Shown here in pieces: positions 8,926-23,343 of a DNA stretch of 64,000 bases (positions are counted from its first letter, which is position 1; every line of letters starts with the position of its first letter). This stretch comes from Synergistes jonesii (GTDB lineage: Bacteria; Synergistota; Synergistia; Synergistales; Synergistaceae), in assembly GCF_000712295.1 (NCBI RefSeq), contig NZ_JMKI01000008.1, positions 1-64,000 of the forward strand, written 5' to 3'. A model generated the notes under the pieces. It had not been told where the DNA came from and ran no database searches. It was given only the letters and a program-made list of their open reading frames with translations. A program made the translations under genes and the position numbers.

Positions 8926-10644
8926 CTACAGTTTATCGCTTCCGTCAGGCCCGAAGGTCACTTTATCCGCGGGCTGCCACCAGAGGGGGACCTTGATGCT
9001 CTCTTTGGTGAGTTTGCCGTTGCCGTTTGCCACCTCTTTGGCGGATTCATAGCCGGCCTGGGCATGGCGGACGACGCCGATCCCCGAGTCCACCGTCATC
9101 GCCACTTCGAGGCGCACGTCGGCGTCGGCCGTGCCGTCCGCTATCTGCGTCACGCCGGTGTGGACAGCTTCGCCCATCGAATAGTTGGCCTGTATGGCGA
9201 TAAGGTCGCACATGCCGCAGGCGTTGAGCAGTCCGTTGAGCATCGGCCAGTCGGAGATAAGGTCGCCGCCGTCCGGCATCCTCTCGGATTCGAATGTCGG
9301 ATTGACGATCGAGCCTGAGTCGAGGTTGTCGCGTGAGAAGGCCACGGGGCCCTTTATCTCGCCCTTTTTGATGAGCTCGTTTACAGCGAGGGCGAATTTT
9401 TTTCTTTGACCGAAGCCCATGTAGCAAATGCGCGCCGGCAGCGCTTCGATGGGAAGATGTTTGCTCGCGAGCGGTATCCAGCGTCCGACGATCGGGTCGT
9501 TTCCGAAGAGCTCCATCGCAAGTTCGTCCGTCCTCTTGAGATCCGCGGGGTCGCCGGAGATGCAGGTCCAGCGGAAGGGGCCGCGCCCCTCGCAGAAGAG
9601 TGGACGGATGTAGTCGGCCACGAAAGCTGGGAGCCTCATAGCCTCTTTCTCCGGGAAGCCGGCGTCGCGGCACTCCTTGCGGATGCTCGTGCCGTACTCG
9701 AAGACGGGAACGCCCTTATCCAAGTACTTGAGCATCACCGCGAGCTGGCGCTTCATCGTCGCGCGGGCCAGCTCCAGGTACTTATCGACGTCGGCGTTGC
9801 GGAGTTCTCTGGCCTGCGCGGGCGTATAGCCGGAAGGGATGTACGACACGGGGTCGTGGCAGGGGCACATCTCCGTCACCACGTCGGGCATAAATCCCTT
9901 TTCAAAGGCCTCTTCAAAGAGGTCGGCCGCGTTGCCGACGACCCCGAAGGAGTGCGGCGTCTTTTCGGCGACACACTTCTTCGCCCCGGCGATCGCCTCG
10001 TCGAGGGAGCCGACTATTTCGTCCAGGTAATTTTTCGCCACGCGGCGCTCAAGCGTCTCGATGTCGGCGTCTACCACGATGGCCACGCCGCCGTGCATCT
10101 TCATGGCCCACGTCTGGTTCCCGCCCATTCCGCCGGCGCCGGCGGTGAGAAGTATCCTGTTCTCCATATTTCCGCCGTAATGTTTGATGCCGACGGCGGC
10201 AAGCGTCTCAAAGGTACCCTCGATGACGCCCTGCGTCCCGATATATTCCCACGGGGCGGCCGTGTACTGCGCGAAGATAGTGAGGTTCTTCGCTTCAAGG
10301 TCGTAGAAGGTCTCCCACGAAGGACGCATGAAATTAGTCGTCGCCATCACCACGACCGGCGCGTATTTGTGCGTCTTGAACACCGCCACCGGCATGCCAG
10401 ACTGCACGACGAGCGTTTCGTCGTCTTCGAGCTCTTTAAGGCTCTTGACGATCGCGTGGTACGATTCCCAGTTGCGCGCGCATTTTCCGTTGCCTCCGTA
10501 GATGATGAGCTTCTCCGGATGTTCCGCGTTCTCCATATTGTTTTCGAGCATGCGGAGGATCGTCTCCTGCCGCCACCCCTTACACCTCAGCGTGTTTCCG
10601 CGCTGTGCCTTCACTTCATAGAGAATCTGAGCTTTTCCTGCCAT
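8926..10644 (-). CDS. hutU: Urocanate hydratase
   Basis: A 572-residue NAD-dependent enzyme that adds water to urocanate to give imidazolonepropionate, step two of the pathway. Family marks include KLIIYGGNGKCARNW (46-60), SGMPVAVFKTH (82-92), FMRPSWETFYDLEAKNLTIF, TAGAGGMGGNQTWA (167-180, NAD site) and TGVTQIADGTADADVRLE in the C-terminal part. Length is slightly above the usual 550-560. The start has AAAAGGAG eight to nine bases upstream. It is the first gene of the operon hutU-dehydrogenase-hutI-fchA-ftcD, with hutH encoded separately 5 kb away. A 225-base divergent space separates it from the YjiH gene. Confidence 0.96.
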   Translation of the reverse strand: MAGKAQILYEVKAQRGNTLRCKGWRQETILRMLENNMENAEHPEKLIIYGGNGKCARNWESYHAIVKSLKELEDDETLVVQSGMPVAVFKTHKYAPVVVMATTNFMRPSWETFYDLEAKNLTIFAQYTAAPWEYIGTQGVIEGTFETLAAVGIKHYGGNMENRILLTAGAGGMGGNQTWAMKMHGGVAIVVDADIETLERRVAKNYLDEIVGSLDEAIAGAKKCVAEKTPHSFGVVGNAADLFEEAFEKGFMPDVVTEMCPCHDPVSYIPSGYTPAQARELRNADVDKYLELARATMKRQLAVMLKYLDKGVPVFEYGTSIRKECRDAGFPEKEAMRLPAFVADYIRPLFCEGRGPFRWTCISGDPADLKRTDELAMELFGNDPIVGRWIPLASKHLPIEALPARICYMGFGQRKKFALAVNELIKKGEIKGPVAFSRDNLDSGSIVNPTFESERMPDGGDLISDWPMLNGLLNACGMCDLIAIQANYSMGEAVHTGVTQIADGTADADVRLEVAMTVDSGIGVVRHAQAGYESAKEVANGNGKLTKESIKVPLWWQPADKVTFGPDGSDKL

Positions 10645-10869
10645 AGAAATGTCTCCTTTTCGTTATTATGTCGCGCCGTGCGGACGCGTTGATTTACGTC
10701 CTCATAATAAGGAGGGCGTATCAAAGAATCGTCAGCGGGAAAAAGCGCCACGCGACCGCTTTTGATGATTGAAGAGAGGTTTTTGATAAAAAATTAATGA
10801 CGAGCGCCTACGATTCTGACGATGTTTGAGTATTCATCAATTTTATTTATGCGGGAGGGGCGCCTCAAC
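10645..10869. promoter_or_regulatory. Divergent promoter region hutU / yjiH
   Basis: A likely hutU -10 box (CATAAT on the minus strand) lies near 10661-10666. A small dyad, AAAAGCG (10741-10747) with CGCTTTT (10757-10763), lies between the two genes and could be an operator or leader hairpin. The 11-bp tandem unit found upstream of hutH is not obvious here. Confidence 0.35.
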
Positions 10870-12165
10870 ATGCCGGAAAAAAGACACAGTCCATTTAGAT
10901 TTATATGTTTCAGCGCTATAGGGATATTTATGTTCTTCGTGCCGATAAGCTTCATGGGGAAAAACAGCATCCCCGTCGATCATGTGATCAGCCTTATAAG
11001 GAAGATTCCCCATCTCGGGCCGTTCTACGTCGTGGCAGTTACGTCTTGGGGAGTCGCACGCGCAATAAAACTCAAGAAGTACGCCGCCTCTGCTACGGAG
11101 GCCTTTTTCTTCTTCACAAACCTGATAGGTACGATATTCTGCGCAATGGTCTTCTTCAACATTGGTCCCGACTGGTTTCTGGAAAAGGATATGGCGCCGT
11201 ACATCTTCAACGCCGTCGCAGTTTCGGTGACTATGCTTATCCCCATAGGCTCCATATTTCTCGCCTTCCTCGTCAACTACGGCCTCATGGAGTGCGTCGG
11301 TGAACTGATGGCCCCCATCATGCGCCCCGTATTTCACACGCCTGGACGAGCGGCCATCGACGCGGTCGCTTCCTTCGTCGGAAGCTATTCGGTGGGGTTG
11401 ATCATCACAAACAACGTCTACAGAAAAGGCGGCTACACGGCGCGCGAGGCCGCTATAATCGGCACCGGTTTTTCCACAGTGTCGGCAACTTTTATGATAA
11501 TCGTCGCAAAGACACTGGGAATCATCGAGCAGTGGAACATTTATTTCTGGGTGACGCTCGTCGTCTGCTTTGCGGTGACCGCGATCACGCTGCGCATTCC
11601 GCCGCTTTCGCGCGTCCCCGACACGCGCTATCCAGGCAGCCACAGCGAAGGGGAGGGCGTCGAACGGACGGGGAACAGATTTGCACGCGCTTGGAGTATA
11701 GGTGTGAAGTGCGGAGCCGAGGCGCCTGGCTTCTATGATATAGCGAAGGATAATTTCAAATACGGCATAGTGATGGCCTCCGGCGTAGGCGCGGCTATAA
11801 TGTTCTTCGGGGTCTCCGCTCTGCTCATTTCAAAGTACACGAATCTTTTCGACTACACAGCCTGGATATACTACCCCTTCTTCAAACTTTTCAGCCTTCC
11901 CGACGCCATGCTGGCAGCAAAAGCCGCTTCGACCTCGATAGCGGACATGTTCCTGCCGGCGATACTCTGCCGGGAATCGGAGATAATCACTCGCTTCGTC
12001 ACCGCCGTCATCTGCATATCCGAAGTGCTGTTCTTCTCCGGGATGCTTCCCTGCCTCACAGGGACCGACATTCCGCTCAGGATGCGCGACATATTCGTTA
12101 TATGGTTCGAAAGGGTCGTCTTCTCTATAGCGCTAGCGGCGCCGATAGCCTACATGCTGTTCTAA
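10870..12165 (+). CDS. YjiH family membrane protein (nucleoside-recognition/Gate domain), hut-linked
   Basis: A 431-residue polytopic membrane protein of the YjiH group (Gate domain). It has about nine to ten hydrophobic helices; diagnostic stretches are NYGLMECVGELMAPIMRP, TPGRAAIDAVASFVGSYSVG and TREAAIIGTGFSTVSATF-like sequence (AREAAIIGTGFSTVS). ATG 10870 is chosen because GGGAGGGG lies upstream; the frame extends 16 codons further without a ribosome site. It is divergent from hutU and convergent with the large regulator, so it is probably a transporter for histidine, urocanate or a product. No member with a proven substrate is known to me. A paralogue with the same motifs is at 32882-34234. 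Confidence 0.8.
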   Translation: MPEKRHSPFRFICFSAIGIFMFFVPISFMGKNSIPVDHVISLIRKIPHLGPFYVVAVTSWGVARAIKLKKYAASATEAFFFFTNLIGTIFCAMVFFNIGPDWFLEKDMAPYIFNAVAVSVTMLIPIGSIFLAFLVNYGLMECVGELMAPIMRPVFHTPGRAAIDAVASFVGSYSVGLIITNNVYRKGGYTAREAAIIGTGFSTVSATFMIIVAKTLGIIEQWNIYFWVTLVVCFAVTAITLRIPPLSRVPDTRYPGSHSEGEGVERTGNRFARAWSIGVKCGAEAPGFYDIAKDNFKYGIVMASGVGAAIMFFGVSALLISKYTNLFDYTAWIYYPFFKLFSLPDAMLAAKAASTSIADMFLPAILCRESEIITRFVTAVICISEVLFFSGMLPCLTGTDIPLRMRDIFVIWFERVVFSIALAAPIAYMLF

Positions 12166-12182: not shown

Positions 12183-15100
12183 CTATATCCCGAAAACTTC
12201 CTTCAGCATCTTCACCCTGTGCGGGACGGGGATTTTGCTGTAAATCGCCGCGGCCTCATAGGCATATTCTCTTGCGCTCTTCTTCATTATTTTGCTGAAC
12301 TGCGGCGGCAGCTCCCCCTCTTCAAGCATCTTCGCGAGATAAGCCCTCGTCATGGCCTGCTCGGCCGTCCAGGAGCGCTTCTGTACCGGCTCCGCCAGAA
12401 GTTCTCCTATCTCAAACGAACGGTAGGCGTCGTCGTAGCGTCCCCGCTCCGCGTCGGCGATAGCCTTCAGACTGTAGAGCATTGAGCCGCAGCGGCCGCC
12501 CTGGCAGCGCTCGAATATCTCCGAGCCGCGGTCGATGTTCTCGAACATCATCTCCCTGTCGCCGAGATCGAAGGCGGCGTCGGCCAGGTGCGCGTGAAAA
12601 TGGCTGCTGCACCAGAAAAGCTTTTTCCCTTCGCAGACGGATATGCAGTGCTTGAAGCGGGCGACGGCGCGCTCGAAATCTCCCTGCCAGTGGTAATTCT
12701 CCCCTATATAACATTCGGCGGCCAGCACGCTCAGCGTATATCTCTTGCCGAGCAGCTCCTGCTCCCTGAATATCTCTATCGAACGGCGCAGCACCTTCTC
12801 CGATCTTTCATAATCGCCCATTATCTGGAAGGCTACGCCGATATAGCGCAGAGCGATGCCCATATACTTCTCGCGCTCGTCGTCGCGCGCGGCGCGGAGC
12901 ATCTCGCGCGCCGTGCGCATAAGCATTTCCGCGTTGTCCGTCTGTAAGAAGAGATGTCCCATGTTTGCAAGGCAGTGTATGTACGTGGTGCCGAAAGAGT
13001 GTTCGCGCGATAGCTTCATGGCGCGGTTGAGCAGCACTCGCGCCCTCCCGTATTCGCCCCAGCAGACGAGGTATCCTCCGCAGAGCTCCAGATAGGAAGC
13101 CTCCATCGCCAGCACCTCTTCGCGGTTGTCTTCGCGCACATTCGCGCTGATGCCTGCGAGCAGGCGGCTCATCGCCTCCATCTTCTTCTCCGTGTCCGCC
13201 CTGTCGTTGTACGGAGACGAACAGGAATAGAGGACGTCGTCCTGCACCAGGGGGAAGAGATCGTGGTTCAGCGTTATATCGAATATCATTTCGCGCAGGT
13301 GTTGTTTCAAAACGTTTTCCGGCAGTCCGGCCTTCGTATAGTGATAGCACAGCATCGAACTCAGAGCCGGATTCCACCTCTGCGGCGAATAGCGCTCGTT
13401 GAGTATCTCGGCGGCTTTCTTGTGGTACTCGCTGAGTTTGAAGCCGGGGATGGCGTCGTACACGCACTCGCGGAACATCGCATGGCTGAAGGCGACGCGC
13501 ACTCCGTAGTCGATCGCCGGCACTTCCTTGATCAGCCTTTTGCCGAGCAGCTCCTCCGCTATCGGATAGATGCGTGGAGGAGCTTCTCCCATTATTTTGG
13601 CGATGGACTGTATCGATGCACCGTCAGTAAAGACGGAGAGCACCCGTAAAAACTCGCGCTGCTTTTCCGCTATCTCCCCGAAGCGCGCAAGCATCACGCC
13701 GCCCAGCCCGCCGCCGGAAAGCTCTGCGCGCGAATTGGCGCGCAGCGTTTTTATTATCTCTGCGACGAGCAGCGGTATGCCCTCGCTCTTTTTATAAAAA
13801 TAGTCGCTCTCCTTGGATTCGATGAGGTCCCTGTCGAGAAAGCGGCTGCAGAACGAGGCGGTGTCGCTGCGGCTGAGCGGGCCGAGCGGTATGTGGAGGA
13901 ATTTTACATAGCCCCCGGCCTCTAAGCGGGAGAGCGTGCGCATCACGTAGGCGCTCTTTTCGGGGCGGCTCGTCATAAATATCGTGGAGGGAACGGAAAG
14001 GCTGGCGATAAAGACCTCGATCATCTGCAGCGAGTGAGCGTCGAACCAGTGCAGGTCTTCGAGGACTATAACGGGACGGCGTCCGGCGGCGACGCGGCAG
14101 ACGAGGTCTGCGACGGCCTTGCCTATGGCGACGGGCGTCCGATCCGATACGACGACGGAGTCGGCGTTGTAGACCGTGTGCCTGTCGCTCATAAAGTTAG
14201 GAAATACACCGGCGAGCAGCGAAATGTCGGCGCCGCTCTCTTCGATTCTGTCGTCGCCGCAGTAGAGCGCGCCCTGCGACACGAGGTTGCTCCACGAGGA
14301 ATAGGGATAGTCGAGCCCGGCTTCGTACGATCTGGTCGAGAGCGTCATATATTCCGGGGAATCCGCGGCCTGCATTATCTTGTTAAGCAGCGAGGTCTTG
14401 CCCATGCCGGCCTCCCCGTCGATGAAGAGGGCGACCGTGCGCCCGCGCGCTCTCTCGATCTGCTCAATTATCCGCCGCTGCTCATCCTTCCTTCCTACGA
14501 AGAAGGCGTCGGGCGAGTCGCTCTCCCCCTCGTCCTCCGCGGAGCCGAGAACGATCATGCGGCGGAAATATTCTTCTGCCCTGGTCGACGGCGCAAGCGC
14601 AAGCTCGTCGTGCAGCCGCCGTCTGTACTCGCGGAAGAGGGCGCTCGCCTTCGCGGCGCCGCGCCGTTTGAAGTAGAGATCCATCAACTCAAGCGTGGAA
14701 TCCTCGTCGAAGGGATCCACGGCGAGCAGCGTCTCCAGCGACGCCTCGAGGTTATCCTCATCCTGAGCGTCGTAGCATAGGGTTATGCGCGCCTTGAGCC
14801 GCTCCGTCAGCTTCTCCCTGAACTGCGATCTCGCCGTCAGCAGCCAGTTGCAGAAATCGGCGCACTCCGGCACGTCGAAGCCCTGCAACAGCTCTGCGGA
14901 GAGATTCTGCGGCAGGGGTACGAGCGGCCGGCTTACTTTATCGACGACATCCAAATCGCAGCAGCCGTCCGCTATCGAGACGTTCCTGCGGTCCGATTTT
15001 ATAAAGTCTGTGGGGAAGCAGCGCTTCAGGAGGTATAAGGCGTTGCGGAAGTTGTTGTAGGCGGAATTTTCGTCCTTGGCGCCCCAGAACGTCGAGGCAA

Positions 15101-15233
15101 GCCTTTCTCTACTGACGCGCCCCTCCACGGCGAGGTAATAAACGATGCCCTCGGCCTTCTTCAGCGGCAGCCGCAGGGGCCTGTCGTCGATCTCAATGGA
15201 CGGCGTGCCGATTACCTTGATCTTTACACTCAT
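12183..15233 (-). CDS. Large transcriptional regulator: BTAD (SARP-like) - ATPase - TPR
   Basis: A 1016-residue cytoplasmic regulator. Residues about 1-95 are a winged-helix DNA-binding region of the OmpR/SARP type (IKVIGTPSIEIDDRPLRLPL, then LASTFWG and NALYLLKRCF), and about 95-228 are a bacterial transcriptional activation domain (BTAD) ending REYRRRLHDELALAPSTRAEEYF. A STAND-type ATPase follows: Walker A DGEAGMGKTS (272-281) and Walker B PVIVLEDLHWFDAHS (387-401). The last 450 residues are TPR-like helical repeats. GAGGAG lies just before the ATG. It sits inside the histidine cluster, between yjiH and hutH, so it is probably the hut regulator. In related proteins ATP binding and a ligand on the repeats release the activator; here the ligand could be histidine or urocanate, which is inference. 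Confidence 0.88.
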   Translation of the reverse strand: MSVKIKVIGTPSIEIDDRPLRLPLKKAEGIVYYLAVEGRVSRERLASTFWGAKDENSAYNNFRNALYLLKRCFPTDFIKSDRRNVSIADGCCDLDVVDKVSRPLVPLPQNLSAELLQGFDVPECADFCNWLLTARSQFREKLTERLKARITLCYDAQDEDNLEASLETLLAVDPFDEDSTLELMDLYFKRRGAAKASALFREYRRRLHDELALAPSTRAEEYFRRMIVLGSAEDEGESDSPDAFFVGRKDEQRRIIEQIERARGRTVALFIDGEAGMGKTSLLNKIMQAADSPEYMTLSTRSYEAGLDYPYSSWSNLVSQGALYCGDDRIEESGADISLLAGVFPNFMSDRHTVYNADSVVVSDRTPVAIGKAVADLVCRVAAGRRPVIVLEDLHWFDAHSLQMIEVFIASLSVPSTIFMTSRPEKSAYVMRTLSRLEAGGYVKFLHIPLGPLSRSDTASFCSRFLDRDLIESKESDYFYKKSEGIPLLVAEIIKTLRANSRAELSGGGLGGVMLARFGEIAEKQREFLRVLSVFTDGASIQSIAKIMGEAPPRIYPIAEELLGKRLIKEVPAIDYGVRVAFSHAMFRECVYDAIPGFKLSEYHKKAAEILNERYSPQRWNPALSSMLCYHYTKAGLPENVLKQHLREMIFDITLNHDLFPLVQDDVLYSCSSPYNDRADTEKKMEAMSRLLAGISANVREDNREEVLAMEASYLELCGGYLVCWGEYGRARVLLNRAMKLSREHSFGTTYIHCLANMGHLFLQTDNAEMLMRTAREMLRAARDDEREKYMGIALRYIGVAFQIMGDYERSEKVLRRSIEIFREQELLGKRYTLSVLAAECYIGENYHWQGDFERAVARFKHCISVCEGKKLFWCSSHFHAHLADAAFDLGDREMMFENIDRGSEIFERCQGGRCGSMLYSLKAIADAERGRYDDAYRSFEIGELLAEPVQKRSWTAEQAMTRAYLAKMLEEGELPPQFSKIMKKSAREYAYEAAAIYSKIPVPHRVKMLKEVFGI

Positions 15234-15362: not shown

Positions 15363-16892
15363 TTATTTCAGTTCTCCCACCGCGGCTTCCGCAGCCTCCA
15401 CCAGTGTGCCGTCGGCTATGAGCTGCGCGGCCGCCTTCTGATCTTTATAGAGGATGCGATCCTCCTCCATGAAGTCCACTACGGCTCGGATCACGTCATA
15501 CGCCGCCTGTGTGCCGGCGCCGAGGCGCCTCTTCTCCTGCAGATCCAGCGCCTGCGCCGCGCAGATGAGCTCAATGCCCAGCACCGCCCTCACGTTTTCG
15601 AGTATCTGCGCCGCTTTACGCGCGCCTATGGTACCCATGCTGACGTGGTCCTCCTGCCCGGCGGAGGTCGGAATAGAATCGACGCTCGACGGATGGGCAA
15701 GCACCTTGTTCTCGGATACGAGCGCGGCCGCTGCATACTGCGGGACCATGAAGCCGCAGTTGATTCCGCCGTGCTTGACTAAAAACGCCGGGAGGCCGTG
15801 GTTGAGCGCAGGGTCGATCAGCTTCGCGATGCGCCGCTCGGAGACATTGGCGAACTCGCAGAGGGCGACGGAGAGCGTGTCGGAGGCTATCGCCATCGGC
15901 TCTCCGTGGAAATTTCCTCCCGAGAAAACGTCGCCCGTATCGACGAAGACTATGGGATTGTCGGTCACGGCGTTCATCTCGTTCTCGGCCACCGAAGCCA
16001 CGTAATCTATCGCGAGGCGGCTTGCGCCGTGTATCTGCGGGATGCAGCGCAGAGAGTAAGAATCCTGCATGCGGAGTTCGCCCTGCGAGGTGACGTAGCC
16101 GCTGCCGGCGAGCAGGCGGCGCATATTCTCCGCGACGTCCCGCTGTCCGGAATGCCTGCGGACCTCATGTATGCGCGGGTCGTAGGCGTTTTTGATGCCG
16201 CGCAGAGATTCGACGGTCAGCGCGCCGACGATGTCCGCGGCCTTTTTGAGCATCTGCGCGTCGGCAAGGGCATGAGCGGCGACCGAAGTCATACACTGCG
16301 TGCCGTTGATTAGGGCGAGCCCCTCCTTCGCTTTGAGTTCGATCGTGGGAATGCCGGCTTTCGCCATGGCTTCGGTGCCCTCCATCACACGGCCGCCGAA
16401 CTCCGCTTCGCCGAGGCCGATCATCGGCAGCACCATGTGCGCAAGCGGGCAGAGATCGCCGCTTGCGCCGACGGAGCCTTTCTGCGGAATCACAGGGTGG
16501 AGGCCTCTGTTCAGCATCATAATCATCGTCTCGACGACCACGGGGCGCACGCCGGAAAATCCGTTGAGCAGAGAATTCGCGCGCATCGCAAGCATCCCGC
16601 GCACGATATCCGCAGCGAACGGGTCGCCCACCCCGACCGCGTCCGCGAGTATCAGCTTTATCTGCAGGAGGTTTATCTCCTCTTCCGGAATGGCGACGTC
16701 GGAAAATTTACCGAAACCGGTGTTGATGCCATACATCGGTCTGCCGCCGGCGACAAGCTCCTCCACGAGCGCGCGGGAGCGCTTTACCTCCTCCATCGCC
16801 GCGGGACAGGCCTTGACGCGAGCGCCTTCTCTCGTGATCCGCATGAGAGCGTCGACGGTCAGGCTCTTGCCGTTCAACAATATATCGTTCAC
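15363..16892 (-). CDS. hutH: Histidine ammonia-lyase
   Basis: A 509-residue enzyme that removes ammonia from L-histidine to give trans-urocanate, the entry step of the pathway. The MIO cofactor forms from the Ala-Ser-Gly triplet at 143-145 inside GSVGASGDLCPLAHM. Other conserved parts are YGINTGFGKF (54-63), QDSYSLRCIPQIHGAS and NPIVFVDTGDVFSGGNFHGEP. The start is a GTG at 16892 with AAGGAG eight bases upstream, giving the usual family length; the frame continues 43 codons upstream but those residues are basic and without family similarity. It is followed after 129 bases by the large regulator on the same strand and is divergent from yuiF, with a striking tandem-repeat promoter between. Confidence 0.96.
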   Translation of the reverse strand: MNDILLNGKSLTVDALMRITREGARVKACPAAMEEVKRSRALVEELVAGGRPMYGINTGFGKFSDVAIPEEEINLLQIKLILADAVGVGDPFAADIVRGMLAMRANSLLNGFSGVRPVVVETMIMMLNRGLHPVIPQKGSVGASGDLCPLAHMVLPMIGLGEAEFGGRVMEGTEAMAKAGIPTIELKAKEGLALINGTQCMTSVAAHALADAQMLKKAADIVGALTVESLRGIKNAYDPRIHEVRRHSGQRDVAENMRRLLAGSGYVTSQGELRMQDSYSLRCIPQIHGASRLAIDYVASVAENEMNAVTDNPIVFVDTGDVFSGGNFHGEPMAIASDTLSVALCEFANVSERRIAKLIDPALNHGLPAFLVKHGGINCGFMVPQYAAAALVSENKVLAHPSSVDSIPTSAGQEDHVSMGTIGARKAAQILENVRAVLGIELICAAQALDLQEKRRLGAGTQAAYDVIRAVVDFMEEDRILYKDQKAAAQLIADGTLVEAAEAAVGELK

Positions 16893-17024
16893 AAAAACCG
16901 CTCCTTTTCGTCTTTTTCGCCTCCCCGCGAAGCAGACGACGTCTTCATACGACCGCCGAGTACAACGATTCCGCCGTGGTACGCGGCGTACAACACAAAG
17001 GCTGCTAAGCAATGTTATCATTTT

Positions 17025-17053
17025 ATTATAGTTACATCAAATTTACATCAAAT
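17025..17053 (-). promoter_or_regulatory. hutH promoter with two tandem 11-bp activator-like repeats
   Basis: On the minus strand ATTTGATGTAA occurs twice with no gap (17053-17043 and 17042-17032), then one base, then a perfect TATAAT (17030-17025). No -35 box is present at the normal distance; the repeats occupy it. Repeats at 11-bp spacing directly upstream of -10 are what SARP/BTAD activators bind, and such a regulator is encoded next door. The link between the two is inferred. Confidence 0.65.
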
Positions 17054-17080
17054 GGGATTTATTTTTTTTATTGCAATTTG

Positions 17081-17109
17081 ATAAATAAATAATAAATAAA
17101 GGATATACT
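17081..17109 (+). promoter_or_regulatory. yuiF promoter with the same 11+11+1 geometry
   Basis: Two 11-bp units, ATAAATAAATA (17081-17091) and ATAAATAAAGG (17092-17102), are followed by one base and TATACT (17104-17109). The layout copies the hutH promoter, but the units are simple AT-rich sequence, so chance is a real possibility. Confidence 0.45.
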
Positions 17110-17205: not shown

Positions 17206-18513
17206 ATGTTATTATTGAATCCTGTGGTAATTTCGGTAATCGTCATGATAGGGCTCTGCCTTGTCAACCTTAATATTGTGCTCGCGCTGCTCTTTGCGGC
17301 GATAGCCGGCGGGTTGGCCGCCGGGATGTCCATCCCTGATACGATGGGCGTACTCATCAACGGCATGGGGGGAAATTCCGAAATGGCGCTCGCCTACTTC
17401 CTGCTGGGGTCGTTCGCCGTCGCGATAAACAAGACGGGGCTCGCGTCCGTCGCGTGCAAAAAGATAGCCGGCCTCGTCGGCGAACGCAAAATGCTGCTTA
17501 TGTTCCTGCTGGCCTTCATCGCCTGCATCTCAGGAACGGTGGTGCCCGTCCACATCGCCTTCATCCCGATACTGATTCCCCCGCTGCTCTTCCTTTTCAA
17601 CAGATTGAAAGCGGACCGCCGGCAGGCCGCCTGCGCCCTCGCCTTCGGGCTCAAGTGCCCATATATCACGCTGCCCATCGGATACGGCCTTATATTCCAG
17701 GGGATAATCGCAGCTGAGATGGGGCGCAACGGCGTAGAAATAGCAAAGGGCTCCGTCCCAGCCTTCACCTGGATAATAGGTATAGGCATGATAATAGGAC
17801 TGCTCATCGCCCTCTTCGTCTCCTACAACAGGCCGAGAAACTATGAGGATAGACCCATAATAGGCGGCACTAACGAAGATATTCCCGACGTATTCACAAA
17901 GACCCATTACCTGACGATGGTAGCCGTAGCCGCCGCCTTCGCCGCGCAGCTGTGGTCCGGCTCCATGCCGCTTGGCGCGCTTGTCGCGCTCACCGTCATG
18001 ATAGTAACGGGAGTCTTGAAATTAAAGGACATCGACGACACCTTCCTCGGCGGCCTTGAGATCATGGGGCTCATCGCTTTCGTCATGCTTATTGCGGCGG
18101 GCTACGGCAACGTGCTCCGCGAGACGAAGTCAGTGGAACATCTCGTGAACGGCGTCGTGGGGATGGTCGGCGGCAGCAGATTCTGGGGGGCGCTTCTCAT
18201 GCTTGCGGTCGGGCTGCTGGTTACGATGGGGATAGGCACGTCCTTCGGCACGGTGCCCGTCATTGCGGCTATATATTGTCCGCTGGCGATACAGCTCGGC
18301 TTCTCCGCTGGGGCGACTGCGTGCCTTATCGCGGCCGCCGGAGCTCTCGGCGACGCCGGCTCCCCAGCCTCGGATACGACGCTCGGCCCGACGGCTGGAC
18401 TGAACGCGGACGGCCAGCACAATCACATCTGGGACACGTGCGTGCCGACGTTCATCCACTACAACATCCCCATATTCATCGCGGCGATGATCGGCGCGCT
18501 GATGATCTACTAA
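17206..18513 (+). CDS. YuiF-type Na+/H+ antiporter family permease, probable histidine transporter
   Basis: A 435-residue membrane protein with about eleven to twelve hydrophobic helices, of the NhaC-like/YuiF family. Typical stretches are LALLFAAIAGGLAAGMS, AYFLLGSFAVAINKTGL, ISGTVVPVHIAFIPILIPPLL and LGDAGSPASDTTLGPTAGLNADGQ near the C-terminus. YuiF relatives are commonly assigned to histidine uptake because they co-occur with hut genes, and here the gene is divergent from hutH. The start is ATG 17206 with GGAGG eight bases upstream; 14 upstream in-frame codons overlap the leader hairpin. A strong terminator follows. Function as a histidine permease is inference from family and place. Confidence 0.85.
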   Translation: MLLLNPVVISVIVMIGLCLVNLNIVLALLFAAIAGGLAAGMSIPDTMGVLINGMGGNSEMALAYFLLGSFAVAINKTGLASVACKKIAGLVGERKMLLMFLLAFIACISGTVVPVHIAFIPILIPPLLFLFNRLKADRRQAACALAFGLKCPYITLPIGYGLIFQGIIAAEMGRNGVEIAKGSVPAFTWIIGIGMIIGLLIALFVSYNRPRNYEDRPIIGGTNEDIPDVFTKTHYLTMVAVAAAFAAQLWSGSMPLGALVALTVMIVTGVLKLKDIDDTFLGGLEIMGLIAFVMLIAAGYGNVLRETKSVEHLVNGVVGMVGGSRFWGALLMLAVGLLVTMGIGTSFGTVPVIAAIYCPLAIQLGFSAGATACLIAAAGALGDAGSPASDTTLGPTAGLNADGQHNHIWDTCVPTFIHYNIPIFIAAMIGALMIY

Positions 18514-18577: not shown

Positions 18578-18640
18578 ATCGCATGATGCAAAAAAACATC
18601 AAAAAAAATCTATAATCAACGATAATCCATACTTCGCAAT

Positions 18641-18670
18641 TTGACAAATTAATTACGCTGACAGTCTAAG
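18641..18670 (+). promoter_or_regulatory. Candidate promoter of the aconitase X operon
   Basis: A perfect TTGACA (18641-18646), 18-base spacer and TCTAAG (18665-18670, 4 of 6 to consensus) lie 58 bases before the first gene. Confidence 0.45.
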
Positions 18671-18727
18671 CTCATAAGCGTTACATAGCATACGGACATA
18701 AATAAGTAACGAAAGCAGGTAATAAAT

Positions 18728-19945
18728 ATGTATTTGACAAAAGAACAGCTCGGCATGCTACACGGCGAAGAAGGGGAAGCCGTCGCATATTCCATGCGCA
18801 TTCAGGAGGGGTTGGGGCGCGTATTCGGCGCAAAGCGCATGGTCCCGATAACGCGCGCGCACGTAGCACTATCGGCGCAGGACGCGGATCTCTGGTTCGT
18901 CGAGAAGCTCGTGAACATGGGCGGCAGATGCAGGATAGCGCCGACGGTGAACCCCAGCATCGACATCGACTACCTGAACCGCCACCTGGCGGAAGTACCA
19001 GATACCGGCAAAGAAATCGTCTCAAAGACGAACGTCGCCTACAGAAAGATAGGGGCGCAGCTCACATTCGACTGTACCCCCTATCTGCAGCAAAACGTGC
19101 CGGCCTACGGCGAAGTCATCGCTTTCTCTGAGTCGAGCGCCACACCCTATGTGAATTCCGTCATCGGCGCACGCACAAACAGAGAATCTTCGCAGAGCGC
19201 CCTCTGCGCGGCCATCACCGGCCTCGTGCCGGAATACGGCCTCCTGCTCGACGAGAAGCGCAAAGCGGAAATATTCGTCGACGTAAGGGCCGACATAAAG
19301 GACGATTTTGACTATCAGCTGCTCGGATGGTGCTACCCTTTGATCTACAAAGGGCCTGAGGTCCCCGCCTTCGTCGGCATAGCGGAACGCGCGACGCCGG
19401 AAGGGTTCATGAACTTCGGCGCGCAGCTGAACACCTCTGGGGCGACCGGGCTCTATCACATAGTGGGAATCACTCCTGAGGCGCCCGATATCAAGCACGC
19501 CTTCGCAGGCAAAGAGCCGAAGAAAAAAGTCATCATAGAGCGCAGGGACCTTGACGCGGTGCGTGAGCGAATATGTGGGAAGCCGGGAAGGATAGATTTC
19601 GCGATGTTCGGCTGTCCGCACCTCTCCATACGTCAGGTGGCCGACATCGCGCGCATCTGCCGCGGCAGACGTTTCTCCGTCGACGTATGGGTGCTGACAA
19701 GCTCCCTCACGAAAGAGTTAGCGGCGCGTATGGGCTTTCTCGACATAATAAATCGCGCCGGCGGTCACATAGTCGCCGATACATGCATAGACGTGCCTCC
19801 GTGTTGGTGGCCATATTATGGCAAAAGCGCCGTAACAGATTCTCCCAAGTGCGCCTATTACAATGAAATAAGAAAAATCGACTTTAAGATCCGTCCGCTG
19901 GAACAGGCTGTCGAGGCGGCGCTGATAGGGGAGGTAAGGATATGA
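18728..19945 (+). CDS. Aconitase X catalytic (large) subunit
   Basis: A 405-residue protein of the AcnX/DUF521 family. Members of the two-subunit bacterial type are cis-3-hydroxy-L-proline dehydratases, which remove water to give pyrroline-2-carboxylate. Family landmarks: LGMLHGEEGEAVAYSMRI near the N-terminus, TVNPSIDIDY, FDCTPYLQQNVP, YGEVIAFSESSATPYVNS, FAMFGCPHLSIRQV and VADTCIDVPPCWW; the cysteines in the last motifs are candidate iron-sulfur ligands. The partner swivelling subunit overlaps the 3' end by four bases (ATGA). A TRAP transporter follows, suggesting uptake of the same compound. Archaeal relatives act on mevalonate phosphate, so another substrate cannot be excluded. Confidence 0.88.
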   Translation: MYLTKEQLGMLHGEEGEAVAYSMRIQEGLGRVFGAKRMVPITRAHVALSAQDADLWFVEKLVNMGGRCRIAPTVNPSIDIDYLNRHLAEVPDTGKEIVSKTNVAYRKIGAQLTFDCTPYLQQNVPAYGEVIAFSESSATPYVNSVIGARTNRESSQSALCAAITGLVPEYGLLLDEKRKAEIFVDVRADIKDDFDYQLLGWCYPLIYKGPEVPAFVGIAERATPEGFMNFGAQLNTSGATGLYHIVGITPEAPDIKHAFAGKEPKKKVIIERRDLDAVRERICGKPGRIDFAMFGCPHLSIRQVADIARICRGRRFSVDVWVLTSSLTKELAARMGFLDIINRAGGHIVADTCIDVPPCWWPYYGKSAVTDSPKCAYYNEIRKIDFKIRPLEQAVEAALIGEVRI

Positions 19946-20355
19946 GCGTGAAAACATTCAAATGCGAAGCGATCGCCGTCGGCAAGGGAGAGGGGCCCGC
20001 ACTCGTTTCGGACGAAGCTATATGCTTTTACCTCGTGGAACCCGACACTGGAACGATGATCGAACAAAGGCACGTTCTTGAGGGACGCTCGCTGGCGCAT
20101 ACGGCGCTCGTAGCGCACGCCGGAAAAGGCAGTTCGGTCGTACAGATGGACGGGCTCTTTAAAATCGCCATGAAAGGCAAGGCGCCGGCGGCAGTAATCC
20201 TGAGAAATCCAGATCCGGTATTCGTCTCCGCGCTCTTAGTAATGGAAATTCCATCCGTCTACAATGTGGACGAGGAATTCTATTCGTATGTGCGAGACGG
20301 CGATTCAGTAGTCGTAGACGCTGATGGCGGAACTATAACCGTCGAAAGGCGCTAA
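19942..20355 (+). CDS. Aconitase X swivelling-domain (small) subunit
   Basis: A 137-residue DUF126 protein, the separate swivelling subunit that closes over the active site of aconitase X. It begins KTFKCEAIAVGKGEGPALVS and includes EGRSLAHTALVAHAGKGSS at about 52-70, where the family has its GKG/S-rich loop. It overlaps the large subunit by four bases, which implies equal translation. In type I enzymes the same domain is fused to the catalytic chain, so the split supports the two-subunit type. A 131-base gap separates it from the TRAP genes. Confidence 0.87.
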   Translation: MSVKTFKCEAIAVGKGEGPALVSDEAICFYLVEPDTGTMIEQRHVLEGRSLAHTALVAHAGKGSSVVQMDGLFKIAMKGKAPAAVILRNPDPVFVSALLVMEIPSVYNVDEEFYSYVRDGDSVVVDADGGTITVERR

Positions 20356-20486
20356 TCTCAGATATTCGAAAGAGGGAAAGGAGGGATCGGAAAGAAGGTA
20401 ACAGCATAATCTGAGCGACGGACGTATGCGCATTTTGCACTAACGATCAGCTTACTGACCTACTAAGAAGGAGAGAAATATTTATC

Positions 20487-21473
20487 ATGAGAAAACTTAT
20501 TGCTCTAACGGTGTTTATTGCAGTCATGGCGGCGGGCGCAGCGTCCGCCGCTCCGGAGTACACGATCAAGGTCGGCTCAATAGTATCCGAAACCCATGCC
20601 GACATGCTCGCTATGAATAAGATATTTAAGCCGCAGGTCGAGGAGCTCTCAAAGGGCAAGATCAAGGTGGAACTTTACCCCAACGCGCAGCTCGGCGGCG
20701 ACCGCGAGCTCTGCGAGGGCGTGCAGATGGGAACGATTCAGATGGCCTTGCCTGCGAGCTCCGCCCTTGCCGGCTTCGACAAGAGAGTTCAAGTCCTTGA
20801 CCTGCCCTATCTTTTTACCAGTAGAAAAACAGCGTTCGAAGCTCTTGACGGCATTCTCGGGAACAAACTGAATCAGTATCTGTTGTCCAAGGGCTTCGTC
20901 GTCCTCGGTTATCAGGAAAACGGCATGCGCCACGTGACCAACAGCAAGCGCCCCATCAAGAGCCCGGCGGACCTCAAGGGGCTGAAGATCCGCACGATGG
21001 AAAACCCGATGCACATCGCCTTCTTCAAAGAGCTGGGAGCCAACCCCACTCCGATGAGCTGGGGCGAGCTTTACACCGCTCTGCAGCAGGGCACGGTCGA
21101 CGCGCAGGAGAACCCCTATGCGATGATAGTGGACGGTAAATTTTACGAGGTGCAGAAATACGTATCAGAGACGGGACATGTCTTCTCGGTGACGATGCTT
21201 ATCGCCAATAAAAAATTCATGGACAAGCTTCCCCCCGACCTGCGCGAGATCATAGTAAAGGCCTCTCACGATTTCGCCGTCGAGCAGCGCAAAACAATAG
21301 CCGGGATGGAAAACGGCTTCAAAAACGAATGTATCAAAGCCGGAATGCAGGTCAACCCGCTCACGCCGGAAGAGAAAAAGCCCTTCGTAGAAGCCACGAA
21401 GAAAGTCTACGGGCAGTTTGAAAAAGACCTCGGCAAAGAAATCATGGACATAGCGAGAAAAGTCCAGAAATAA
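20487..21473 (+). CDS. dctP: TRAP transporter substrate-binding protein (DctP family)
   Basis: A 328-residue secreted binding protein. Residues 1-22 are a signal peptide ending ASA, followed by PEYTIKVGSIVSE. The DctP signature is complete: AQLGGDRELCEGVQMGTIQM, LPYLFTSRKTAFEAL and LKGLKIRTMENPMHIAFFKELGANPTPM. The arginine in KIRTM normally binds the ligand's carboxylate, so the substrate is an organic or amino acid. TLQQGTVDAQENP follows as usual (ALQQGTVDAQENP). GAAGGAG is upstream. Position behind aconitase X suggests hydroxyproline or a related acid as ligand; this is inferred. Confidence 0.92.
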   Translation: MRKLIALTVFIAVMAAGAASAAPEYTIKVGSIVSETHADMLAMNKIFKPQVEELSKGKIKVELYPNAQLGGDRELCEGVQMGTIQMALPASSALAGFDKRVQVLDLPYLFTSRKTAFEALDGILGNKLNQYLLSKGFVVLGYQENGMRHVTNSKRPIKSPADLKGLKIRTMENPMHIAFFKELGANPTPMSWGELYTALQQGTVDAQENPYAMIVDGKFYEVQKYVSETGHVFSVTMLIANKKFMDKLPPDLREIIVKASHDFAVEQRKTIAGMENGFKNECIKAGMQVNPLTPEEKKPFVEATKKVYGQFEKDLGKEIMDIARKVQK

Positions 21474-21549
21474 CACTTTAGCGTCAGCGGCCTATATGCG
21501 CGTCCTCCGTCAGGGGGGCGCGCGTAAGGCGTTATGGGAGGTTCGTCTT

Positions 21550-22062
21550 ATGACCGTTAAGAAATTCCTTGACAACTTTGAAGAATATTTTTGCGTGTGG
21601 ACGATGGCAATAATGACCGTTCTCGTCTTTATCCAAGTCGTTATGAGATATATTTTCTCGAACTCCCTCTCGTGGAGCGAAGAGCTTGCGCGCTTTATCT
21701 TCCTCTGGCTCTCCTGGATAGGCGCGAGCTACGCGGTAAAGGAGCGCAGCCATTTCCGCGTCGAAATGTTCGCCAATATGATGAAGGGCGAAAAGCGCAG
21801 GATTTTTGAATACTTCATACTGATAATATGGTTCGCCTTCAGCTTCGTTCTGGCGTGGCTGGGCAGCGAGCTCGTCCTCTTCATCCACGAATCCGAGCAG
21901 GCGTCGGCCGCTATGGACATCCCCATGACGTGGCCCTACGCCTCAGTGCCGGTAGGCTGCGCGCTGATGTGCGTCCGCCTGATGATCGAAATGTACAAGA
22001 TATATAAGGGAGCGCCTGTAGGCGCCGAAGCGAAGCGGCAGGAACTCGAGGAGATGGTATAA
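21550..22062 (+). CDS. dctQ: TRAP transporter small permease (DctQ)
   Basis: A 170-residue membrane protein with four helices, the small subunit of a TRAP transporter. FIQVVMRYIFSNSLSWSEEL (about 27-46) and FLWLSWIGASYAVKERSHF are the usual DctQ motifs. ATG 21550 is preferred because GGGAGG precedes it by eight bases; 18 further in-frame codons upstream lack a ribosome site. Its stop is directly followed by the start of dctM with no gap, so the two are coupled. It lies 76 bases after dctP. Confidence 0.92.
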   Translation: MTVKKFLDNFEEYFCVWTMAIMTVLVFIQVVMRYIFSNSLSWSEELARFIFLWLSWIGASYAVKERSHFRVEMFANMMKGEKRRIFEYFILIIWFAFSFVLAWLGSELVLFIHESEQASAAMDIPMTWPYASVPVGCALMCVRLMIEMYKIYKGAPVGAEAKRQELEEMV

Positions 22063-23343
22063 ATGGAAGCGCTTATTCTTTTCTCTCTGCTCATCATAAC
22101 GATAGGGCTCAGCATCCCCATCGGCATCACCCTCGGCCTCTCCACCGGCGTCGCTATGTGGCTCACGTCGGACATACCGATGACGATGCTCGCGCAGAAA
22201 TCGGTGACCGGTCTCGACTCCTTCCCGCTCCTTGCGATCCCCTTCTTCATCTTAGCCGGAGCGCTGATGTGCAACGGAGGCATCTCGCGCCGCTTAGTCA
22301 ACCTGGCGGAGAGCTTAGTCGGCTACATCACCGGCGGGCTGGCGATGGTGACGGTGCTCGCCTGCATGTTCTTCGCGGCGATCTCCGGCTCCGGCCCGGC
22401 GACGGTCTCCGCTATCGGCTCCTTCATGATCCCCTCGATGAAAGAGCGCAAATACGACGCCGGCTTCGCCGCGGCCATCACGGCGGCGGCGGGGACGATA
22501 GGCGTCATCATACCGCCCTCCATCCCCTTCGTCATCTACTGCATAGTCGCCCAGTGCTCGATCGGCGACATGTTCATCGCCGGCATCGTCCCGGGCGTCA
22601 TTATAGGCGCCGCGCTGATGCTCGTATGCTACTGCACGGCGAAAAAACACAACTACCTGAGCGTCTCCGAACGCCCGAAATTCTCTACCGTCGTCAAGGC
22701 CTTCAGAGAAGCCTTCTGGGCGCTGCTCGTCCCCGTGATAATCCTGGGCGGCATCTACGGGGGGATATTCACGCCGACGGAAGCGGCGGTCGTAGCCGTC
22801 GTCTACTCCGTAGTCATAGGCAAATTCGTCTACAAAGAACTCGACGGCAAAACCCTCTACGAATGCCTGCGCACGACGGGGCTGATAAACGGCGCCACGG
22901 AATTTATGATAGGGCTCTCGATGGCCTTCGCGAGCTACCTTGCGATGGCCCAGATCCCGGCCCACATAGCCGCCTGGATGACCGGCCTCGCGCACAGCCC
23001 GATCATACTGATGATGGTGATAAACGTATTCCTGCTGATACTGGGCTGCTTCGTCGACAACATAGCGGCCGTGATAATCCTCACGCCGATACTGCTGCCT
23101 GTCGTCAAGACGATAGGCATGGACCCGATACACTTCGGGCTCATCATCACGGTCAACCTGGCGTGCGGCTTCATCTCGCCGCCGTACGGAATAAACCTTT
23201 TCGTCGCGTCCGCGATATCGGGCGAAAGCATAGAGGACATCTCGAAGGCCATCCTGCCGTCCTTCATCGCGATGGTCCTCTGCCTGCTGCTATTCACATA
23301 CTTCCCGATATTCACGATGGGGCTGCTGGACCTGCTGAGATAG
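22063..23343 (+). CDS. dctM: TRAP transporter large permease (DctM)
   Basis: A 426-residue membrane protein with about twelve helices that moves substrate with sodium ions. Characteristic parts are AGALMCNGGISRRLVNLAES, FAAISGSGPATVSAIGS, AAAGTIGVIIPPSIPFVIY, GGIYGGIFTPTEAAVVAV and VNLACGFISPPYGINLFV. It starts on the base after the dctQ stop. It is the last gene of the aconitase X/TRAP cluster; no clear terminator is seen after it. Confidence 0.94.
   Translation: MEALILFSLLIITIGLSIPIGITLGLSTGVAMWLTSDIPMTMLAQKSVTGLDSFPLLAIPFFILAGALMCNGGISRRLVNLAESLVGYITGGLAMVTVLACMFFAAISGSGPATVSAIGSFMIPSMKERKYDAGFAAAITAAAGTIGVIIPPSIPFVIYCIVAQCSIGDMFIAGIVPGVIIGAALMLVCYCTAKKHNYLSVSERPKFSTVVKAFREAFWALLVPVIILGGIYGGIFTPTEAAVVAVVYSVVIGKFVYKELDGKTLYECLRTTGLINGATEFMIGLSMAFASYLAMAQIPAHIAAWMTGLAHSPIILMMVINVFLLILGCFVDNIAAVIILTPILLPVVKTIGMDPIHFGLIITVNLACGFISPPYGINLFVASAISGESIEDISKAILPSFIAMVLCLLLFTYFPIFTMGLLDLLR

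Follow-up and report, generated by a model that had tools for sequence, protein, structure and literature searches.

A predicted AfsR-like regulator and candidate tandem-heptad operators at the histidine-utilization locus of Synergistes jonesii

SARP regulators have been described, in the literature we found, as activators of antibiotic genes in actinomycetes. Their promoters follow a rule in which 11- or 22-bp repeats lie 8 bp from the -10 box, and for AfsR from Streptomyces coelicolor, a large SARP of the STAND family (structures 8k60 and 8hvr), the repeats extend from -40 to -19 with critical contacts at T-38 and T-27, the NOD and TPR parts of the protein being inhibitory until ATP binds (PMC10936776). 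PimR/SARP-LAL regulators share with the protein described here an N-terminal SARP domain and heptameric direct repeats with 4-bp spacers (PMC5930380); they differ in that the PimR heptad is CGGCAAG, often in three copies, and in that PimR controls polyene biosynthesis.

The pathway considered here, histidine breakdown, is controlled by HutC in Pseudomonas and by HutP in Bacillus. The latter is an RNA-binding antiterminator without a SARP domain. HutC is a GntR-type repressor (PMC12772324, PMC12977541) and also has no SARP domain. HisR and CodY of Synergistetes are likewise amino-acid regulators (PMC9413887, PMC9318921), but their sites are palindromic and the proteins are of the TrpR and GAF-wHTH types; HisR acts on biosynthesis, and the term "hut" is absent from the text of the CodY paper (PMC9318921). 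YuiF has been called a histidine permease (PMC9413887). We found no description of SARP control of histidine breakdown in the open-access literature searched, and within that literature the arrangement reported below is SARP-like in geometry and new in pathway and lineage.

Genes of the locus and architecture of the regulator

The features of the window, the 64-kb stretch of S. jonesii DNA that was analyzed, are collected in Table 1. The identities of hutH, the yuiF-like permease and the 1016-residue regulator were as named or implied by the initial annotation, and the genes predicted to be served are, as it had proposed, those of histidine use, to which hutU and a Gate-domain transporter can be added.

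Table 1. Genes and candidate operator/promoter elements in the window
Feature	Position	Strand	Description
hutU, urocanate hydratase	8926..10644	-	TIGR01228 hutU equivalog, above cutoff
Candidate hutU operator/promoter	10704..10736	-	GCTGACG N4 TTTGATA N9 TATTAT; same position and spacing in G016, G022, G007, G013, G165, G168
Candidate Gate-transporter operator/promoter	10782..10814	+	TTTGATA N4 ATTAATG N9 TACGAT
Gate-domain membrane protein, probable transporter	10822..12165	+	Pfam PF07670; real start probably downstream of 10822
1016-aa regulator	12183..15233	-	Predicted OmpR-type winged helix and BTAD (1-235), STAND ATPase (AAA_16, 245-415), TPR; Pfam BTAD, AAA_16, TPR
hutH, histidine ammonia-lyase	15363..16895	-	TIGR01225 hutH equivalog, 663 bits, above cutoff
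Candidate hutH operator/promoter	17020..17052	-	TTTGATG (17052-17046) N4 TTTGATG (17041-17035) N9 TAAAAT (-10, 17025-17020); best model match in the window; heptads conserved in G016, G022
Candidate yuiF operator/promoter	17077..17109	+	TTTGATA (17077-17083) N4 AATAATA (17088-17094, degenerate) N9 TATACT (17104-17109)
yuiF-like permease (Na+/H+ antiporter family)	17206..18513	+	Pfam PF03553, PF13726
Possible acnX/TRAP-transporter operon operator	18640..18672	+	TTTGACA N4 AATTACG N9 TAAGCT; 15.8 bits

Pfam placed a BTAD domain in the regulator above cutoff, a match found in 22 of 22 relatives, followed by AAA_16 (61 bits) and by TPR_12 at residues 757-824, which is the NOD/AAA ATPase and TPR order of a large SARP. 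Neither the receiver domain of OmpR-type response regulators nor the GntR/UTRA domains of HutC-type repressors were present among its Pfam matches. Trans_reg_C also gave no Pfam sequence match in the regulator, a point in favor of the repeats being bound by another OmpR-type protein, a two-component response regulator, with the neighboring BTAD gene incidental. Response regulators of the OmpR family, too, recognize direct repeats at a spacing of about 11 bp. Against such a protein stands the fold predicted for the regulator itself, since the AlphaFold2 model of residues 1-240 (pLDDT 92.4) has a helical BTAD domain after its winged helix, as in AfsR. In a Foldseek comparison with this model the best matches were AfsR (8k60/8hvr) and EmbR (2fez), over about 250 columns and with E values down to 4e-9, and AfsR bound to its promoter and EmbR were the sole solved structures confidently matched. 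The model points to an N-terminal OmpR-type winged-helix DNA-binding domain in the regulator. The composite sites described below, moreover, lie genome-wide beside BTAD genes and rarely elsewhere, and we consider binding by a different OmpR-type protein quite improbable.

The likeness to SARPs was seen only by fold comparison, as a sequence search of PDB chains with the regulator returned no SARP, and its BTAD relatives in named genomes were distant, matched mainly in the ATPase region and included no named ortholog. The regulator resembles AfsR in its layout of winged helix and BTAD, ATPase and TPR, and in having, a short way upstream of the -10 box, a pair of repeats spaced by 11 bp. It differs from AfsR in its 18-20% identity over the N-terminal domain, in its heptad (TTTGAYR), in its predicted targets, which are catabolic and transport genes where AfsR acts in antibiotic regulation, and in its host, which is not an actinobacterium. 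With respect to the repeats, a spacing of 11 bp was best here and the gap to the -10 box, by heptad count, was 9 bp as against 8 bp for AfsR and the SARP rule. The secondary-metabolism role of the AfsR-type class was not found, the predicted targets being hutH, hutU and transporters; this difference concerns role and not structural membership. EmbR of Mycobacterium tuberculosis shares the winged helix and BTAD fold. It has a C-terminal FHA domain where this regulator has the STAND ATPase and TPR parts.

In one relative, G016, the regulator ortholog (L066 13114-15169) is interrupted after about residue 211 by an IS3-like element with two transposase-like ORFs (13819-14262 and 14256-15128). The remaining regulator ORF of 219 aa has the DNA-binding and BTAD domains alone, the layout of a small SARP. 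This interruption counts against the mode of regulation proposed below.

Tandem heptads upstream of the hut genes and their conservation

On the minus strand upstream of hutH two copies of ATTTGATGTAA (17053-17043 and 17042-17032) are followed by C and then TATAAT (17030-17025), and on the plus strand upstream of yuiF ATAAATAAATA (17081-17091) and ATAAATAAAGG (17092-17102) are followed by A and then TATACT (17104-17109). These letters and distances are present as first described, when a common geometry of 11+11+1 was proposed for both promoters. The hutH pair is the sole exact adjacent 11+11 tandem in the window, and such a tandem arose in 2 of 3000 dinucleotide shuffles of the hutH/yuiF intergenic region. 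The two yuiF units are identical at 9 of 11 positions, and a pair this good was obtained in 109 of 3000 shuffles; taken alone the yuiF-side pair is marginal, and the frequency of such AT-rich 11-mers speaks for the repeats having arisen by chance in an AT-rich intergenic region, or by strand slippage.

Conservation argues otherwise. Regulator orthologs in G022 and G016, which represent two other genera, are 68% and 73% identical, respectively, and both adjoin hutH. TTTGATG-N4-TTTGATG is present upstream of hutH in both, and the sequence around it has diverged. Across 53 genomes of the family the exact pattern gave 3 matches, all upstream of hutH beside an orthologous regulator, and the reversed-pattern control gave none. 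Because the exact pattern sits only at three regulator-linked hutH genes and the reversed pattern nowhere, the hutH repeat is, judged by this comparison, a real and maintained element. As the heptads persist in other genera amid diverging flanks and spacers, a chance origin of the hutH heptads is refuted, and we give chance or slippage as an account of the repeats very little credence.

On the hutH side the heptads were the only conserved part. The 11+11+1 spacing to TATAAT was not conserved in G016 and G022, in which AGTAGG occupies that place, and the paralog promoters described below use 9 bp; TATAAT, one base past the 11-mers, was ruled out as the hutH -10 box on these two counts. Applying the 9-bp spacing shifts the -10 box by 5 bp, from TATAAT to TAAAAT, two choices that are nearly equal within the window alone (23.7 vs 24.2). 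On the yuiF side TATACT is retained as the -10 box. The match in geometry between the two promoters thus stands when both are read as heptad-N4-heptad-N9-(-10), which is the frame they share, and does not stand as 11+11+1. The reading of the yuiF operator as two AT-rich 11-mers was also replaced, these units not being kept in G016, whereas the TTTGATA heptad is kept in both G016 and G022. The yuiF site of the window is weak (12.2 bits vs 14.1 for an overlapping offset at 17066), yet it is supported by sequence from another family, in which G165 and G168 have clearer yuiF sites. The second yuiF heptad of this genome, AATAATA, may be chance sequence.

The hutU operator was recognizable in seven genomes from two families, examples being GCTGACG-ATTC-TTTGATA-N9-TATTAT in the window and GTTGATG-GTTC-CTTGATA-N9-TATACT in G168. 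Among the collected hut sites, which were partly picked by the model described below, the 9-bp spacer was almost without information, and the invariant positions were the heptad cores and, in the -10 box, the A and the final T. In G007, G165 and G168 the sites found were directed at hutU and transporters only, and none directed at hutH was detected. The Gate promoter of G016 has the same heptads and spacer as the window, with TATATT. In G022 (L067 12742-12759) the Gate-side heptads TTTGATG N4 TTTAATG are kept and the Gate gene and its -10 box are gone from the locus, so these heptads look like the relic of a lost promoter.

An operon of acnX and TRAP-transporter genes (18728-23343) lies downstream of yuiF in the window. 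A second TRAP operon of G022, near its hut cluster (L105 13230-16301), bears a strong operator-like TTTGATG N4 TATGACG N9 TAAAAT, and because of this site the TRAP substrate may belong to the same regulon as the hut genes.

Further histidine-lyase loci were seen. A second hutH paralog, hutH2 (G000:C51:34904, L077; relatives L078, L079, L080, L083 and L084), carries a strong sigma-70-like promoter that is immediately followed by a conserved leader, TTGTAGCGCAAAGATTTAGGATTGAAAAGTATTAAAGTG, and an Rfam search of the hutH2 leaders found no family. Opposite-strand sites near hutH2 in G016, G022 and G030 were set aside as incidental, because G000 lacks them and their place is within the conserved leader, which a good sigma-70-like promoter precedes. 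HAL-like proteins split over two neighboring ORFs of half size, oriented divergently to BTAD paralogs, were observed at G016:C1:2042355-2043935 and 2062926-2064488, G030:C1:1951066-1952746 and G022:C12:25866-27453.

A promoter rule from paralogs and its specificity

The family holds several paralogous BTAD-ATPase-TPR regulators, many of which adjoin catabolic operons, and their intergenic regions carry similar tandems, among them TTTGACG-N4-ATTGACG-N9-TAAAAT (G000 and G030; TAGAAT in G016) and TTTTATA-N4-TTTTATG-N9-TATACT. The rule taken from them is a TTTGAYR-like heptad, 4 bp, a second such heptad, 9 bp and a -10 box. As the 9-bp spacing was spotted by eye in eight paralog sites with the hutH site already known, the rule was tested on promoters outside training (hutU, Gate, and the G007, G013, G165, G168, G011 and G067 sites) with a model of the two heptads and the -10 box trained on 8 non-hut promoters. 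In a scan of the whole window the hutH site scored highest at 24.2 bits, the next being 15.8. When the 28 intergenic regions of the window were ranked, hutH/yuiF came first, acnX second and hutU/Gate third, with region scores reached in 0, 4 and 8 of 2000 shuffles, respectively.

Spacings of 1-20 bp to the -10 box were then compared on a set whose members were selected for gene and strand, not for score. A spacing of 9 was the best of the 20 for hutH in G000 and G022, for hutU in G000, G022, G007 and G013, and for Gate in G000 and G016. It ranked second for G016 hutU, fourth or fifth for yuiF and sixth for G016 hutH, where a spacing of 6 (TAGGAT) outscored it, and in the same set it failed for hutH in G007. 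In ten segments, of which the N9 scan itself had supplied some, spacing 9 averaged 17.3 bits vs at most 10.8 for other spacings, and a heptad spacing of 11 averaged 17.3 vs at most 10.0 otherwise.

The strict pattern WTTGAYG-N4-WTTGAYG-N9-TANNNT had 6 matches in the 53 genomes (113.5 Mb) and none in the reversed control. Five lie beside BTAD genes and one precedes a G067 hutH by 72 bp; three of the six had been used in training, but not the BTAD-linked sites of G011 and the window hutH. A relaxed pattern applied to 8 genomes gave 14 matches vs 1 in the reversed control. One of the 14 lies within rplA; the other 13 are accounted for by hut promoters, BTAD genes, one HAL-like gene and the TRAP operon adjoining the G022 hut region. 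All four relaxed matches in G165 and G168, of a distant family, are hutU and yuiF promoters of BTAD-linked hut clusters, and both G007 matches are in its hut cluster, one before hutU and the other before a sodium:amino-acid symporter divergent from hutH.

This distribution also bears on whether the sites might belong to CodY or HisR. Both regulators are reported in Synergistetes (PMC9318921, PMC9413887) and the AT-rich sequence resembles parts of CodY arms; however, their motifs are palindromic, where the hut sites are direct repeats at 11 bp with a fixed spacing to the -10 box, and hut-type sites are few per genome rather than in 8-13% of genes. Ownership by either regulator appears barely credible to us.

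A survey of the motif upstream of other BTAD genes vs control regions was not significant (p = 0.11), in part because some of the control segments were hutH promoters themselves carrying the motif, and one motif for all BTAD regulators was unsupported. At L086, L087 and L094, upstream of BTAD paralogs, TTTGACA and TTTGACR occur at 22-bp spacing, directed towards the regulator gene, which suggests that these paralogs may be autoregulated.

Proposed mode of regulation and its meaning

The initial proposal that the repeats are tied to a nearby BTAD regulator is borne out in that the heptads track an adjacent BTAD (SARP-domain) gene whose product has an N terminus with the predicted AfsR/EmbR fold. 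Local activation of the hut genes by an AfsR-like STAND/SARP protein, acting through the adjoining heptad operators, seems to us very probable, a view in which we infer the binding, activation over repression, and the ligand. The repeats would be the operator of the neighboring large SARP (OmpR-like winged helix and BTAD, STAND ATPase, TPR), two protomers of which would sit side by side on the two heptads, 11 bp apart and on one helix face, at the place of the -35 box. With the downstream heptad ending 9 bp before the -10 box, the regulator would replace a poor -35 contact and recruit RNA polymerase. Using TAAAAT as the -10 box would, by analogy, put the TTT of each heptad near the AfsR-critical T-38 and T-27, and with TATAAT they would be displaced by half a turn of the helix. 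The local targets would be hutH, hutU, the Gate transporter, yuiF and possibly the acnX/TRAP operon. As in AfsR and MalT, the ATPase and TPR part may hold the DNA-binding part inactive until release by ligand and ATP, histidine or urocanate being the natural guess for the ligand.

Activation is what the SARP family and the promoter geometry would lead one to infer. Since the heptads reach into the -35 zone, a protein sitting on them could also stand in the way of polymerase, and the same operator might serve to repress the hut genes in a HutC-like manner, with relief by histidine or urocanate. Repression by promoter blocking seems improbable to us, however, as a fixed 9-bp spacing to the -10 box together with the lack of any detectable sigma-70 -35/-10 pair is typical of activator-dependent promoters, and AfsR at the matching place activates (PMC10936776).

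Beyond this locus, we lean slightly towards the view that AfsR-like STAND/SARP proteins act as a set of local regulators of amino-acid and related catabolism in the order, with one promoter code, paralog-specific heptads (TTTGATG for hut; WTTGACG or TTTTAYR for others) and an inducer sensed by the TPR part. If that is true, regulator-operon pairs could be matched by sequence across the group. The hut pathway would offer obvious candidate ligands for large SARPs, histidine and urocanate, which would make the question of STAND/TPR sensing directly testable. If local activation of the hut genes is right, the promoter code would be simple enough for regulon prediction, and the SARP mode of activation would serve nutrient use in general in a lineage far from the actinomycetes.
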